Below are positions 6,400 through 58,648 of a stretch of DNA of 64,000 bases, piece by piece; the first letter of the stretch is position 1, and every line of letters starts with the position of its first letter. The notes under the pieces are model-generated. The model was not told the DNA's origin. It did no database searches and saw only the letters and a program-made list of their open reading frames with translations. The stretch spans positions 62,001 to 126,000 of the forward strand of contig NZ_SZPX01000004.1 in the NCBI RefSeq assembly GCF_005217605.1, written 5' to 3'. The stretch comes from Sulfurimonas crateris. Its GTDB lineage: Bacteria; Campylobacterota; Campylobacteria; Campylobacterales; Sulfurimonadaceae. Made by a program: the position numbers and the translations under genes.

Positions 6400-7227
6400 A
6401 TGAAGAAATTCACAACATTGGTCGCTATAGATTTTTCAAAAAGCAGTTATGTCGTTTTAGAAAAAGCGCTTGATTTTACAAACAAAAGAGATGGTGAACT
6501 TCACGTTGTTCACGTGGTAGAGAGCTCATTCTTTTCAAAAAAAGAGGATATAGACGCTGTGCATGAGCGTAGATATACTGAACTAAGCAAGAATTATAGT
6601 GAAATTAAAAAAGAGAACTTTCACTGTGTCAGCGGCAAAATAAAAGTTGAAGTCGCTAACAGTGCAAAGCTATTAGACGCGGATCTCATCATTATGGGCA
6701 ACAGCGGTGAGACACACTTTTTAAATGAATTTATTATGGGTTCACATACAAAAGAGATAATAAAAAATGCTCAGACTCCTATTTTGGTAATGAAAGATGA
6801 GCATGAGCTAGAGTATAAAAACATCTTGGTATTAACCGACCTCTCTGATGACTCTGCTGCTGCAATCAAAAAAGTAGCCAATTTTTTTCCAAACTCAAAA
6901 ATAACTCTGCTTAACCTATTCTATCTTCCGAGTGATGATAAGTTCGGTCTCTTTGGTTTTGAAGAGGATGACCTTGAGAAATACCAAGCTCGCATAAAAG
7001 ATGAGTCTCAAAAAAATATAGACGCTTTCTTGAAATCTTTATCTATGCCAAATGAGCTAGATATATCTGCCTCAGCAATTGTAAGCTCTTTAAATCCTAA
7101 AAAATTCAAAGAAGAGGCTTCGGATATAAGCTACGATATGCTTTCAATCCACGCAACGCAAAATGTAAGCTTTTTTGCTTTTGATATTTTAGAGCAGTCA
7201 GATGTCGATGTTTTTGTTGTAAAATAG
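6400..7227 (+). CDS. Tandem universal stress protein (UspA family)
   Basis: A 275-residue protein with two Usp domains. The first (about 1-137) opens FTTLVAIDFSKSS and contains the nucleotide-binding loop MGNSGETHFLNEFIMGSHT, which matches G-x2-G-x9-G-S/T. The second (about 145-275) opens NILVLTDLSDDS but lacks an intact G-x2-G-x9-G loop (SIHATQNVSFFAFD), so probably only the first binds ATP. The reading frame is open to 6322, but that codon lies in a TATAAT box. The ATG at 6400 has GGAG 6 bases upstream and begins the conserved fold. Likely a cytoplasmic stress or energy-limitation protein. Confidence 0.85.
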   Translation: MKKFTTLVAIDFSKSSYVVLEKALDFTNKRDGELHVVHVVESSFFSKKEDIDAVHERRYTELSKNYSEIKKENFHCVSGKIKVEVANSAKLLDADLIIMGNSGETHFLNEFIMGSHTKEIIKNAQTPILVMKDEHELEYKNILVLTDLSDDSAAAIKKVANFFPNSKITLLNLFYLPSDDKFGLFGFEEDDLEKYQARIKDESQKNIDAFLKSLSMPNELDISASAIVSSLNPKKFKEEASDISYDMLSIHATQNVSFFAFDILEQSDVDVFVVK

Positions 7228-53854: not shown

Positions 53855-53878
53855 CAAAACTTAAATAATTAAGTTTTG
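53855..53878 (+). terminator. Hairpin after ftsZ
   Basis: A 10-bp perfect stem (CAAAACTTAA / TTAAGTTTTG) around the loop ATAA, starting 9 bases after the ftsZ stop. The T-run lies inside the stem's 3' arm, so it is not a textbook terminator, but it would separate ftsZ from the next gene. Confidence 0.5.
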
Positions 53879-53914: not shown

Positions 53915-54349
53915 ATGAAATTTTTATTTGTGATGATGTCTATACTGTTTTCTGTTTATGCTGCAGACATACCGCTGCAAAGCAGAGAAATTTCGCCCCA
54001 AAATATGAAAAAGCAAAACAAAGAGATCGCTAAATTGGCTGCCCAAGAGTTGTCAAAAGCTTTGCCTTCAAGAATAGACAAATACACAGAACTTACAAGC
54101 ATCAAGGCAGACGATACTACGCTTGTCTATATATTTGAAATTGACATATCTCCAAAAAGTGATGAAAGTGTAAAAAAAAATGACCACAGTAGAATGAAAG
54201 AGGCAGTAACTTTGGGCGTTTGCAGAAATTCAAAACGCTTTTTAGATGCAGATATTTCAATTCAGTATATTTACAACAGCGCTCATAGCAAATCAGAACT
54301 GTTTAGGTTTGATATAAATAAAGAGGTATGTTTTAATACTTTGCAATGA
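53915..54349 (+). CDS. Small exported protein of unknown function
   Basis: A 144-residue protein with a clear signal peptide (KFLFVMMSILFSVYA, cleavage likely before ADIP). The mature part is charged, helical at first (KKQNKEIAKLAAQELSKALP) and then β-rich, with two cysteines (TLGVCRNSKRF and KEVCFNTLQ) that could form a periplasmic disulfide. It resembles no family I know. The ATG overlaps no neighbour; its stop overlaps the Crp/Fnr regulator start by 4 bases, so the two are translated together. Confidence 0.65.
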   Translation: MKFLFVMMSILFSVYAADIPLQSREISPQNMKKQNKEIAKLAAQELSKALPSRIDKYTELTSIKADDTTLVYIFEIDISPKSDESVKKNDHSRMKEAVTLGVCRNSKRFLDADISIQYIYNSAHSKSELFRFDINKEVCFNTLQ

Positions 54350-55014
54350 ACAAAAGCATCTCCACCAAGGAAGTTATCTCCTCTTTAGATTTTTTTTCAA
54401 CTCTTGATAAAGATCAGATAGAGTTTTTGTCATCTATCTCAGTAATACACAACTACTCAAAAGAGTATGTCGTATATTATGAAAAAAAGCAAAACGACTC
54501 TCTTTTATATCTTTTAAAAGGCTTGGCAAAAGCATATAAAATAGATAAACACAACAACGAAATATTTTTACACTACATATATGAAAACTCTCTAATAACT
54601 GAAATATCAAGCACAAAACAAGATATTCTTAACTCATTTGCAAATGTAGCGCTTCTAAAAGATTCTCAAATACTACAAATCAATTATAAAAAGTTTAAAG
54701 AAGAATTTTTAGATAAAGGGTGCTTATGTTCTGAAATTATCAATGAAATTATTTTAAAATCCCAGCAGCTGCAATCACTTGTAAACAGAGAGTTTATCTT
54801 TAACTCTACCGCAAAAGTTGTTATGATGCTTCATGATAACCTTGATATATTCAACAATTTAAAAAGAGCAGAGATATCACTTATTCTTCACATTCAGCCG
54901 GAGACCCTCTCAAGGGTTTTAAACAGACTCAAAAGAGATAAGATCATAGATTCTAACAATGGAAAAATTATGATTTTAGACAAAGAAGCTCTTGTTTCTA
55001 TTTACGAGGAGTAA
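54346..55014 (+). CDS. Crp/Fnr family transcription regulator, candidate nos activator
   Basis: A 222-residue regulator with an N-terminal cyclic-nucleotide-binding-like β-roll (about 15-120), a dimerisation helix, and a C-terminal winged helix. The recognition helix reads PETLSRVLNRLKRD (about 183-196); the E..SR pattern is that of FNR, which reads TTGA-type half-sites, whereas CRP has E..GR. The N-terminal FNR [4Fe-4S] cysteines are absent; one CLC pair lies at about 126-128. Its signal is unknown; nitrous oxide, NO or a heme ligand are guesses. It lies two genes upstream of nosZ. Confidence 0.82.
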   Translation: MNKSISTKEVISSLDFFSTLDKDQIEFLSSISVIHNYSKEYVVYYEKKQNDSLLYLLKGLAKAYKIDKHNNEIFLHYIYENSLITEISSTKQDILNSFANVALLKDSQILQINYKKFKEEFLDKGCLCSEIINEIILKSQQLQSLVNREFIFNSTAKVVMMLHDNLDIFNNLKRAEISLILHIQPETLSRVLNRLKRDKIIDSNNGKIMILDKEALVSIYEE

Positions 55015-55017
55015 AAA

Positions 55018-55959
55018 ATGAAAAAAATTAAAATTGTGGGTGCACTTATCTTTACTCTTTCAATTACGCTTGCTATTATTTTTGGCTATACGTCAAAAAA
55101 TATTTCTGAACATAATGATTTTATAAATGCAATAAATAAACAAAAAGATTTTACGCAGGAGATATCTAAAAATATTTTCTATATCTATAAAAATCCGACT
55201 AGCTCTGCAAAAACATTGGATGACTCTATCAAAAAATTTTTAGATGTCATGAATACTAGAAATGAAAATAGTAAAACAAATGAAAATATTGCAAAGCTAT
55301 GGAACTCTTTTTACCTTAATGTACAGACATTCAGAGATCAGTTCAAAAATAGATCGATCTACTCAAATATTTTATTTGAAAAAAGTGTAAAAGAGATTTA
55401 TAACACTAATTTAAGGCTCATTTTAGAGTTTAACAATATTGTTCAAAAAGAGAAAGAGAGCTTTGAGGAAAAACAGCAGTTTTACAAATATCTTCAATAT
55501 TTACTTTTTACTCTTCTTGTACTTCTTCTTCTGTTTTTATTTACCGAGTTAAAAACAGTTATCGCTTTTGTACAAAAATTTCTATCTGCCTCAAAAGAGA
55601 TTATTTCAAATAGCTCGATCAAAGAACTAAAACCTATTGAAATAGAGAATGCTGGTACAGACATAATCCAGGCAAAAGACAATTTTAATTCACTCGTAAA
55701 AAAGATAAACGACTCAATAGAGTACTCCGGCAACTCAATAGAGTACGCACACGAATCATTAAAGGTTACAGAGAGGCATATAGAGGATTTAGTAGAGTTG
55801 ATATATGATATGAACGACAAAACAAGAGACAAAGAGTTAAGAAAAAAAGAGGATGCCGTCATACAATCTCTTGAAGAGCTGAGTTCAACAGCCGTTAAAC
55901 TAAAAAATCTAAAAAAAGACCTAGATTCTCTTATTTTATATTCTAAACTTAAAAATTAA
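55018..55959 (+). CDS. Orphan two-TM sensor-like protein without output domain
   Basis: A 313-residue protein. A first TM (about 5-23) and a second (about 160-183, YLLFTLLVLLLLFLFTEL) enclose a periplasmic helical domain of about 135 residues, like the ligand-binding bundles of NIT/PilJ-type sensors. The cytoplasmic part (about 184-313) is coiled coil (SIEYSGNSIEYAHESLKVTERHI..., then SLEELSSTAVKLKNLKKDLDSL) and has no histidine kinase, GGDEF or MCP signalling tip. GAGGAG at the end of the preceding regulator gene gives its ribosome binding site. Direct contact with the regulator is an inference. Confidence 0.65.
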   Translation: MKKIKIVGALIFTLSITLAIIFGYTSKNISEHNDFINAINKQKDFTQEISKNIFYIYKNPTSSAKTLDDSIKKFLDVMNTRNENSKTNENIAKLWNSFYLNVQTFRDQFKNRSIYSNILFEKSVKEIYNTNLRLILEFNNIVQKEKESFEEKQQFYKYLQYLLFTLLVLLLLFLFTELKTVIAFVQKFLSASKEIISNSSIKELKPIEIENAGTDIIQAKDNFNSLVKKINDSIEYSGNSIEYAHESLKVTERHIEDLVELIYDMNDKTRDKELRKKEDAVIQSLEELSSTAVKLKNLKKDLDSLILYSKLKN

Positions 55960-55969
55960 AATTAATTCA

Positions 55970-55993
55970 AAAATTTGACTAAGGTCAAATTTT
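55970..55993. promoter_or_regulatory. nosZ: FNR-like operator upstream of nosZ
   Basis: A perfect inverted repeat of 10-base arms, AAAATTTGAC and GTCAAATTTT, around TAAG. The core TTGAC-N4-GTCAA fits the Fnr/Dnr half-site spacing. Its centre (55981.5) lies 41.5 bases before a +1 predicted from the TACTAT -10 at 56011-56016, the class II activator position. The Crp/Fnr-type gene at 54346 is the obvious candidate to bind it. Confidence 0.7.
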
Positions 55994-56010
55994 CAAGCTC
56001 TTGATTTTAT

Positions 56011-56016
56011 TACTAT
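56011..56016 (+). promoter_or_regulatory. nosZ: Candidate -10 box of the nos operon
   Basis: TACTAT, 32 bases before the nosZ ATG. The FNR-like palindrome covers the -35 position, so no separate -35 is expected. AAGGAG at 56037-56042 is the nosZ ribosome binding site. Confidence 0.5.
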
Positions 56017-56047
56017 TTTGTTATCAATGGAATTTAAGGAGAGTATT

Positions 56048-58648
56048 ATGAAAAGACATTTCACTAAGTTTTCTTCAGTGTTACTGAGCGTTTCGCTAGC
56101 CGCAAGCGGTTTGGTTGCTAGTGGCGGTGAGCTTGCTGAAGTTATGAAGAAAAGGGGTTTAAGTGAGCTTGATGTAGTTCGTGCTGCAAAAACTTACAAC
56201 CCCTCTGGTGTAAAAGATGAGTTTGTTGTTTTTAGTTCCGCGGGTCAAGCAGGACAGGTGATTGTATACGGTGTTCCGTCTATGAGAATTTTAAAATATA
56301 TCGGAGTTTTTACTCCTGAGCCTTGGCAGGGATATGGATTTGACGAAGAGTCTAAAAAGGTTCTAAGACAAGGAAATATCAGAGGAAGAGAGATCAACTG
56401 GGGAGATACTCACCACCCTGCTCTCTCAGAAATAGATGGAAAATATGACGGCAAATGGCTTGCTATCAATGATAAGGCAAATCCTCGTATCGCTATTATC
56501 GACTTAGCAGACTTTGAAACAAAACAGATTGTTGTTAACCCTGTTTTCAAATCTGCTCACGGTGGAGCTTTCTTTACTCAAAACAGTGACTATATCATTG
56601 AAGCATGCCAATATGCAGCTCCATTTGATAATAACTACCATCCAATCGAAGACTACAAAGAAGCATACCGCGGTGGTGTTACAATGTGGAAGTTTGATCA
56701 CAAAAAAGGGAAGATTCAAGAGAAAGAGTCTTTTACAATTGAGATGCCTCCATATATGCAAGATTTAAGTGACTCCGGAAAAGGCGTTTCTGACGGATGG
56801 GGATTTACAAACTCTGTAAATACTGAAATGTATACAGGTGGGATCGAAGTAGGTATGCCGCCAAATGAAGCAGGTATGAGTAGAAATGATACTGACTTCT
56901 TACATGTATATAACTGGAGAAAACTGGGAGAACTTGCAAAAGATCCAAAAAATGTAAAAATCATTAATGATCACAAAGTTATTCCTATGGAAATCGCGGT
57001 TAAAAACAATGCACTATTCTTAATTCCTGAACCAAAATCTCCGCATGGTGTTGACGTATCTCCTGATGGTGAATACATCACGGTTTGTGGTAAACTAGAT
57101 ACGCACGCTTCTGTTTTTAAATGGAGTAAAATCAAAAAACTTATTGACAGTAAAGAGTATGCTGGAAAAGATCCATACGGCATTCCTATCTTAGACATGA
57201 AAAAATCTCTTCACGGTCAAGCAGAACTTGGTCTTGGGCCATTACATAATCAATACTCAAACGTTGATGGTGAAATTTATACTTCACTTTACGTTGATAG
57301 TCAAATCGTAAAATGGAACTATAAAACTCTTAAAGTACTAGATAAAGTAAATGTTCACTACAATGTAGGACACCTTTGTGGGATGGAGGGTAAATCTGCT
57401 GATCCTCAAGGAAAATATATTATTTCACTCAACAAATTAGCAATTGATAGATTTCAAAATGTTGGACCACTTCATCCACAAAATCACCAGCTAATTGATA
57501 TTAGTGGTAAAAAGATGGACCTTCTTGTAGACATGCCTCTTCCTCTTGGAGAGCCACACCAAGCAGTTGCTATTAGAGCTGAAAAACTTCACGGACATGT
57601 AAGATATCCAATGGGTACAAACTCTAGAACTGACTCAATCCACGAGGGTAAAACACTTGCAGGTCAAGAGAGAATTGAAAGAGATGGAAACAAAGTCAAA
57701 ATTTATGCGACTGTTGTTCGTTCACACATCAATCCCGAGAGAATTACTGTAAACAAGGGCGATGAGGTAACTATGTACCTAACAAACCTTGAGCGTGCTC
57801 AAGATGAGGCACACGGTTTTACGATTGGCCATTATAATGTTCATGCGTCGCTTGAGCCTGGTAAAACTGCAAGTATTAAGTTTACTGCTGACATAGAGGG
57901 AGTTTTTCCTTACTACTGTACAGAATTCTGTTCTGCTCTTCACTTAGAGATGATGGGTTACCTGATGGTAAAAGACCCGAACAAAAAGTACGAAAGTGCA
58001 CAAAAAATGAAAATGCAAACAATGACTCCTGCAGAGTTAAAAGCTGAATATGACAAAACTGTTGCAACGAATGCCGCAACTGATGCTGTTATACAGTCGG
58101 TCGTTAAGTTCTTAAAAGACAATAACTTTGATAAGCATAAAGTTGTTGCGGATCTTGTTACAGATGCCTTTGATCAATACGGTCAAATTCCTGCACAGAA
58201 AAAACTAGCTGATGAAGCAGTTAAAGCCGGTGATCTGGAAAAAGCTATCCTTTTTGAAAATATGATTTGGCAACTTATGGTCAAAACAGCCGATGTCGGG
58301 ATCAGAGCAAAAGATGCCCTTGTTAGAATCATTGCTACAAAACAGTCAGCTGCAGCTGCTAACGGTGAAAAAGCATTTGGAGAAGGCGGATGTGGCGGTT
58401 GTCACGTTATCGGCAAAGTCTCTTCCGGTCCAGACTTAACAGGTGTACTTGAGAGACACGGTAAAGATAGTCGAAAATGGGTAAAAGATTTTATTATGAA
58501 TCCTGAAAAAATGTATGAGGATCCATATGTTAAAGGTATGATTGATTACTTTAACCTTAAAATGCCTAATCAGCACATGAGTGAGAAAGAGACTGAAGAT
58601 ATCATAGAGTATCTTAAATGGGTAGATGAAAACGCAAATCTTTTCTAA
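56048..58648 (+). CDS. nosZ: Nitrous-oxide reductase NosZ, clade II, with C-terminal cytochrome c domain
   Basis: An 866-residue periplasmic copper enzyme reducing N2O to N2. The leader (MKRHFTKFSSVLLSVSLAASGLVA) has no twin arginine, as in Sec-exported clade II NosZ. The β-propeller carries CuZ histidines, such as DTHHPALSE (H122, H123). The cupredoxin domain holds CuA in CTEFCSALHLEM (C624, C628, H632, M635). A C-terminal class I cytochrome c domain has CGGCH (C782, C785, H786) and a likely Met ligand in PNQHM. The ATG at 56048 has AAGGAG upstream; the frame is open 30 bases further. Confidence 0.98.
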   Translation: MKRHFTKFSSVLLSVSLAASGLVASGGELAEVMKKRGLSELDVVRAAKTYNPSGVKDEFVVFSSAGQAGQVIVYGVPSMRILKYIGVFTPEPWQGYGFDEESKKVLRQGNIRGREINWGDTHHPALSEIDGKYDGKWLAINDKANPRIAIIDLADFETKQIVVNPVFKSAHGGAFFTQNSDYIIEACQYAAPFDNNYHPIEDYKEAYRGGVTMWKFDHKKGKIQEKESFTIEMPPYMQDLSDSGKGVSDGWGFTNSVNTEMYTGGIEVGMPPNEAGMSRNDTDFLHVYNWRKLGELAKDPKNVKIINDHKVIPMEIAVKNNALFLIPEPKSPHGVDVSPDGEYITVCGKLDTHASVFKWSKIKKLIDSKEYAGKDPYGIPILDMKKSLHGQAELGLGPLHNQYSNVDGEIYTSLYVDSQIVKWNYKTLKVLDKVNVHYNVGHLCGMEGKSADPQGKYIISLNKLAIDRFQNVGPLHPQNHQLIDISGKKMDLLVDMPLPLGEPHQAVAIRAEKLHGHVRYPMGTNSRTDSIHEGKTLAGQERIERDGNKVKIYATVVRSHINPERITVNKGDEVTMYLTNLERAQDEAHGFTIGHYNVHASLEPGKTASIKFTADIEGVFPYYCTEFCSALHLEMMGYLMVKDPNKKYESAQKMKMQTMTPAELKAEYDKTVATNAATDAVIQSVVKFLKDNNFDKHKVVADLVTDAFDQYGQIPAQKKLADEAVKAGDLEKAILFENMIWQLMVKTADVGIRAKDALVRIIATKQSAAAANGEKAFGEGGCGGCHVIGKVSSGPDLTGVLERHGKDSRKWVKDFIMNPEKMYEDPYVKGMIDYFNLKMPNQHMSEKETEDIIEYLKWVDENANLF

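Follow-up and report, generated by a model that had tools for sequence, protein, structure and literature searches.

Among the known biological sinks for the greenhouse gas N2O, NosZ is the main one; Campylobacterota that carry clade II nosZ are common where conditions are sulfidic and low in oxygen. In Wolinella, the regulators NssA, NssB and NssC mediate the responses to nitrate, NO and N2O, with Nap, Nrf and NosZ being raised, and the three share targets (PMC6682613). The consensus of the Nss site is TTGA-N6-TCAA; work on Nitrosophilus reported a negative correlation between nosZ and an Nss-like regulator and suggested negative control, the predicted sites overlapping the start (PMC11539149). 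How the Nss regulators sense nitrate, NO and N2O was named in a 2021 review as a matter for further study (PMC8139620).

Here, we describe a nosZ locus of Sulfurimonas crateris in which a predicted Nss-type operator precedes nosZ, and genes for a Crp/Fnr regulator, a membrane protein and an exported protein lie upstream. The window (the whole stretch of DNA that was analysed, 64,000 nucleotides) contains the following features of this cassette:

53918-54349, + strand: exported 143-residue protein, with a 4-base overlap (ATGA) into the start of the regulator gene
54346-55014, + strand: Crp/Fnr-superfamily regulator, Nss/DNR-like, with recognition segment HIQPETLSRVL, Cys126 and Cys128
55018-55959, + strand: membrane partner, modelled with two transmembrane helices, a NarQ/PilJ-like four-helix periplasmic domain and a two-helix cytoplasmic hairpin
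55123-55158 (residues 36-47 of the partner): N-box remnant INAINKQKDFTQ, without the nitrate G-x-x-R
55960-55967, + strand: AATTAATT block, roughly -63 to -56, which may be a UP-like element
55970-55993: predicted Crp/Fnr (Nss-type) operator, palindrome AAAATTTGAC-TAAG-GTCAAATTTT, centre 55981.5 = -41.5
55974-55989: conserved operator core TTTGAC-N4-GTCAAA within the nosZ palindrome
56011-56016, + strand: nosZ promoter -10 hexamer TACTAT, with the TAnnnT spacing kept in relatives
56023, + strand: predicted nosZ transcription start (A), placed from the -10
56036-56041, + strand: nosZ ribosome-binding site AAGGAG
56048-58648, + strand: nosZ, clade II (Sec-dependent) nitrous-oxide reductase with a C-terminal cytochrome c domain

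The palindrome upstream of nosZ and its conservation

The encoded NosZ scores 894 bits against TIGR04246 (cut-off 625) and also matches a Cytochrom_C domain. The palindromic arms and 4-base spacer that an earlier note on this DNA had reported upstream of the gene were found exactly there, at 55970-55993, and the coordinates agree with its placing of the centre 41.5 bases upstream of the start predicted from TACTAT (55981.5 versus 56023). The arms are present in full as it described them, yet only the inner 6 bp of each (TTTGAC/GTCAAA) are conserved. The motif TTGAC-N4-GTCAA occurs once in the window, where 0.07 occurrences were expected, and a search of the 2.2-Mb genome for the whole 24-mer gave no further match with up to three mismatches allowed. 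Chance alone would give 0.1 inverted repeats with perfect 10-bp arms and a 4-base loop in 64 kb; the window holds three besides the nosZ palindrome. Directly 3' of ftsZ, at 53855-53878, we observed a perfect 10-bp inverted repeat, CAAAACTTAA-ATAA-TTAAGTTTTG, which perhaps separates ftsZ from the nosZ cassette.

The usual gene order in 35 fetched regulator-bearing loci (own genome and one duplicate counted in) is exported gene, regulator, membrane gene and nosZ, often with ftsZ just before. TTGAY-N4-GTCAA is positioned 65 to 115 bases 5' of the start codon in every nosZ upstream region that was read from regulator-bearing loci. The comparison of regulator-carrying relatives suggested in the earlier note returned the core of the palindrome in 41/41 distinct nosZ promoters; aligned on the dyad, these keep TTTGAC/GTCAAA constant save for one C-to-T, and a TAnnnT -10 begins +29.5 from the dyad centre in all 41 (23/41 for the next-best offset). 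Positions from about +13 to +21 are far more variable than the core and the -10, so the conservation of the latter two does not reflect mere relatedness. The AATTAATT block is conserved in the 41 promoters though intergenic, with its central TTA at 80-100%.

Within the family, nosZ is present in 13/13 genomes with a nosZ-type regulator versus 0/13 without one (Fisher 1e-7, but the genomes are related), the 26 members counted being those covered by both the regulator and the nosZ searches. The extra nosZ copies of three genomes (G069, G073 and G075) lack regulator and site alike, and among the phylum's other pair-less nosZ genes no perfect site was detected within 300 bp, the best reaching 9/10. 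A divergent second nosZ that lacks both the pair and the site occurs in some Sulfurimonas genomes (L144, L145 and L146). In G031, the site is kept although the regulator/membrane pair and nosZ sit on separate contigs, as expected for action in trans, while G163 carries the pair without an adjacent nosZ.

The regulator and its napA-linked paralogue

Both PF13545 and PF00027 score above cut-off in the regulator, which thus has the sensor and HTH domains of the Crp/Fnr fold. A profile search puts DNR closest to it among solved structures (E 4.5e-13), and DNR (3dkw) is also the best Foldseek match of the regulator model (pLDDT 88.6). In the tree, a 70-row clade with support 100/100 holds the window regulator together with the NssA-like L183 from G354; taking L183 as NssA rests on our presumption that G354 is the W. 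succinogenes genome. The earlier note had described the regulator as cysteine-free, which is wrong, since Cys126 and Cys128 are present; these are, however, its only cysteines, so the note was right that the FNR cysteine cluster is missing. An FNR-type Fe-S regulator is ruled out by this count, there being no four-cysteine cluster. A Cys at 126/128 is retained in 36/44 relatives.

The recognition helix reads PETLSR, the FNR-like E..SR that had been claimed for it. We found that its Glu is replaced by Ala (PATLSR) in 28/52 nosZ-type regulators, fragments counted (e.g., L018, L023, L024, L026 and L156), and that TTGAC-N4-GTCAA is unchanged in all 20 Ala-type regulators that could be paired with a site; a reading of specificity based on Glu is therefore incomplete. 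A third, distant Crp/Fnr regulator, clustered with NosL-like proteins, is located about 8 kb past the window end (G000 C4:133776-134405; L062 9777-10406).

Upstream of napA, this genome has paralogues of both the regulator and the membrane protein, as well as TTGACTTAAGTCAA. The recognition segment of this NssA-like paralogue (G000 C5:67662-68318) is HIQPETLSRVL, identical to that of the nosZ-linked regulator, and the napA site is a perfect TTGAC-N4-GTCAA at a spacing similar to that of the nosZ site. At the level of sequence, the operator pattern TTGA-N6-TCAA precedes the N-oxide reductase genes nosZ and napA. The flanks after GTC differ consistently between the two, being AAAT(T/C)T(A/T)T in nosZ sites and mostly AAAGATTTT in napA sites. 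Across the whole genome, the perfect intergenic sites are those of nosZ and napA only, the other two lying inside genes, and sites with at most one mismatch number 58 versus 38 for a reversed-pattern control, which is little above the control. A large regulon was rejected on these two counts.

Just 3' of the napA -10 there is a second conserved inverted repeat, GTTAATGGACACCTTAAC (L061 about 6464-6484; napA promoters L160-L175), a candidate for a further operator or for a leader element. In G354, two tandem TTGAC-N4-GTCAA motifs (L222 1664-1693) are found about 70 bases 5' of a permease-like gene, near the NssA-like pair.

The membrane partner

Among 71 NssA-like regulators drawn from 298 Campylobacterota genomes, 64 are followed immediately, on the same strand, by a PilJ-type membrane gene, which in 63 cases lies within 80 bases, and this pairing spans several families. 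The window partner is a divergent homologue (2e-32) of the napA-linked PilJ protein (L061 5328-6338), which contains a PilJ domain (PF13675, E 4.3e-16) and an exact N-box, INIAGKQRMLTQ, matching the pattern described for nitrate-binding PilJ domains (PMC6381276). The nitrate-binding motif G-x-x-R (PMC8199190) is present in 25/25 napA-type partners versus 0/43 readable nosZ-type partners, in all of which Lys takes the place of the Arg; the window protein reads N-x-x-K. In NarX, Lys at this Arg abolishes ligand sensitivity, and NarQ R50K was crystallised in the apo state (PMC7247690).

The model of the window partner has a middling pTM (0.52). NarQ accounts for seven of its ten best Foldseek matches (prob 0.99-1.00 but E 0.04-0.2), chemoreceptors are also among the matches, and comparison with 6xyn gives VIA Z 12.6, a value that unrelated helical bundles also reach; since bundles of this type match one another readily, these fold matches are weak by themselves. 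Neither domain search nor model revealed a HAMP, kinase or receptor signalling domain, and the protein ends in a short coiled hairpin. In the literature searched, we found no PilJ partner of Nss regulators and no PilJ protein gating a Crp/Fnr protein.

The exported protein and the origin of the nosZ cassette

The exported protein is encoded in 44/45 nosZ-type cassettes versus 0/27 napA-type or N-box-intact ones. Its family has invariant Cys102 and Cys138, and nosZ is present in all 22 genomes of the 298-genome sample that carry a homologue. The family (window 53918-54349; L253-L258) also tracks nosZ in families where the genes lie apart; in L254, the gene follows two genes after a NosD-like gene.

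The tree places the nosZ-type regulator clade inside the napA-type regulators, and its sister, L138 (G386), is nosZ-linked with a partner whose N-box is intact. By sequence, the nosZ-linked pair descends from a napA-type pair. Since the loss of G-x-x-R and the exported protein are both confined to nosZ-type cassettes, the loss of the pocket coincides with the gain of the exported partner.

Proposed mechanism and alternatives

From the site with its conservation and spacing, the linkage and pairing of the genes, the loss of G-x-x-R, the gain of the exported protein and the descent from the napA-type pair, all of them shown by the sequences, we infer a mechanism of binding, activation, membrane-protein gating and signalling. 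The palindrome would be the operator of an NssA-like Crp/Fnr activator, most likely the product of the regulator gene that lies two genes before nosZ, and a dimer of this activator would bind at -41.5, the classical class II activator position, and activate nosZ by touching RNA polymerase. We consider it highly probable that the palindrome is an operator with class II activation of nosZ, and the earlier note is supported where it described a class II Crp/Fnr site before nosZ with an adjacent Crp/Fnr regulator devoid of the FNR Fe-S cluster.

Having no Fe-S sensor, the regulator may have its activity set through the co-encoded, NarQ-like but kinase-less membrane protein. This partner is more likely the place of signal input than the regulator itself; for its gating the regulator, we see a chance that falls just below even. 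In the ancestral napA-linked pair, the sensor would bind nitrate through the N-box, while the nosZ-linked copy would have lost the nitrate pocket and taken a new input instead, perhaps via the exported protein or a ligand such as N2O, although N2O as the signal of the nosZ-linked system seems to us doubtful; N2O and NO, two of the signals considered in the earlier note, are candidates at most. Taken as a whole, an explanation comprising a neighbour-encoded activator, class II activation of nosZ, gating by the membrane partner and a changed input is fairly probable. More generally, an NssA-like regulator and its PilJ-type partner may constitute a transmembrane system whose kinase-less, NarQ-like sensor exerts direct control over a Crp/Fnr activator, the napA pair reading periplasmic nitrate and the nosZ copy, with its pocket lost and an exported partner recruited, reading another signal, possibly N2O; we put this forward as a tentative proposal that could well prove wrong.

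Several points count against the explanation: the Ala at the recognition Glu in many nosZ-type regulators, the negative correlation seen in Nitrosophilus, the failure of the literature search to turn up a PilJ protein that gates a Crp/Fnr protein, and the middling membrane model with its weak bundle matches. In addition, the napA-linked paralogue, with its identical recognition segment, could bind the nosZ site. It might do so mainly or jointly with the neighbour, nosZ and napA then forming one regulon with no dedicated regulator, which we regard as unlikely but deserving serious weight. The perfect napA site at similar spacing and the HIQPETLSRVL common to both regulators fit such a regulon, as do the shared targets of the Wolinella Nss regulators (PMC6682613), and the earlier note's idea of a regulator dedicated to nosZ is doubtful, given that the core site recurs at napA, where the paralogous regulator has an identical recognition segment. 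However, the outer bases of the two kinds of site differ consistently, and the nosZ site is intact in four genomes (G001, G019, G039 and G053) in which no NssA-like regulator other than that of the nosZ-type cassette was found.

Alternatively, the membrane protein could be a co-transcribed taxis or energy sensor with no part in gating, the Crp/Fnr protein sensing its ligand directly in a DNR-like manner. DNR, the nearest solved structure, is thought to sense haem/NO directly; to our knowledge, it has no membrane partner and DNR-type regulators do not need one, and the chemoreceptor matches of the partner point the same way. Yet the partner follows 64/71 NssA-like regulators in several families, and it terminates in the short coiled hairpin with none of the output domains searched for. 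We hold direct sensing without gating to be rather unlikely.

Far less credible is a repressor site, or repression of nosZ by the bound protein, because the centre is fixed at -41.5 in 41/41 promoters, where class II activators classically bind. The argument for it comes from Nitrosophilus, with its negative correlation between an Nss-like regulator and nosZ and its sites overlapping the start (PMC11539149). That the palindrome serves as a terminator or RNA hairpin separating the membrane gene from nosZ is scarcely conceivable and was rejected: the window copy does fold at -8.9 kcal/mol (z -2.97), but the inner bases hardly vary and variants of the outer arms are almost never compensatory (0/33 at offsets 8.5, 9.5 and 11.5), a pattern that favours a protein site over a hairpin, and no terminator was found.

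With class II activation by an NssA-like regulator as the preferred reading, its pairing with a kinase-less NarQ-like protein names a concrete sensor candidate for the Nss regulators and provides a testable idea of nitrogen-oxide sensing in Sulfurimonas. The partner at napA is by its sequence nitrate-competent and the one at nosZ has no pocket, a difference that shows where specificity changed.

Comparison with known systems

The closest likeness is to NssA, NssB and NssC of W. succinogenes and NssR of C. jejuni, Crp/Fnr proteins of the same phylum that lack the FNR cluster, use TTGA-N6-TCAA-type sites and have nap and nosZ as targets. The NssA-like gene of G354 (presumably W. succinogenes) falls in the same clade and has a membrane partner, a gene without mention in the Nss literature searched. 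Unlike in the Nss systems, it is a copy of the napA-linked NssA type that is linked to nosZ in Sulfurimonas; in G354, the gene beside nosZ encodes a distant Crp/Fnr protein without a membrane partner.

DNR of Pseudomonas aeruginosa, a regulator of denitrification, is likewise an Fe-S-free Crp/Fnr protein and the best solved-structure match, the likeness being structural only. With E. coli FNR, the system shares the TTGAY-N4-RTCAA core, the class II position and the E..SR recognition helix, but the regulator has no four-cysteine cluster and about half of its nosZ-type relatives have Ala for the recognition Glu. Finally, the partner may resemble the nitrate sensors NarX/NarQ and McpN (PilJ domain) in its modelled fold, and the napA-linked paralogue has the exact N-box; the partner differs from them in that no HAMP, kinase or chemoreceptor output was found and in that the nosZ-linked copy has lost G-x-x-R, with Arg changed to Lys.
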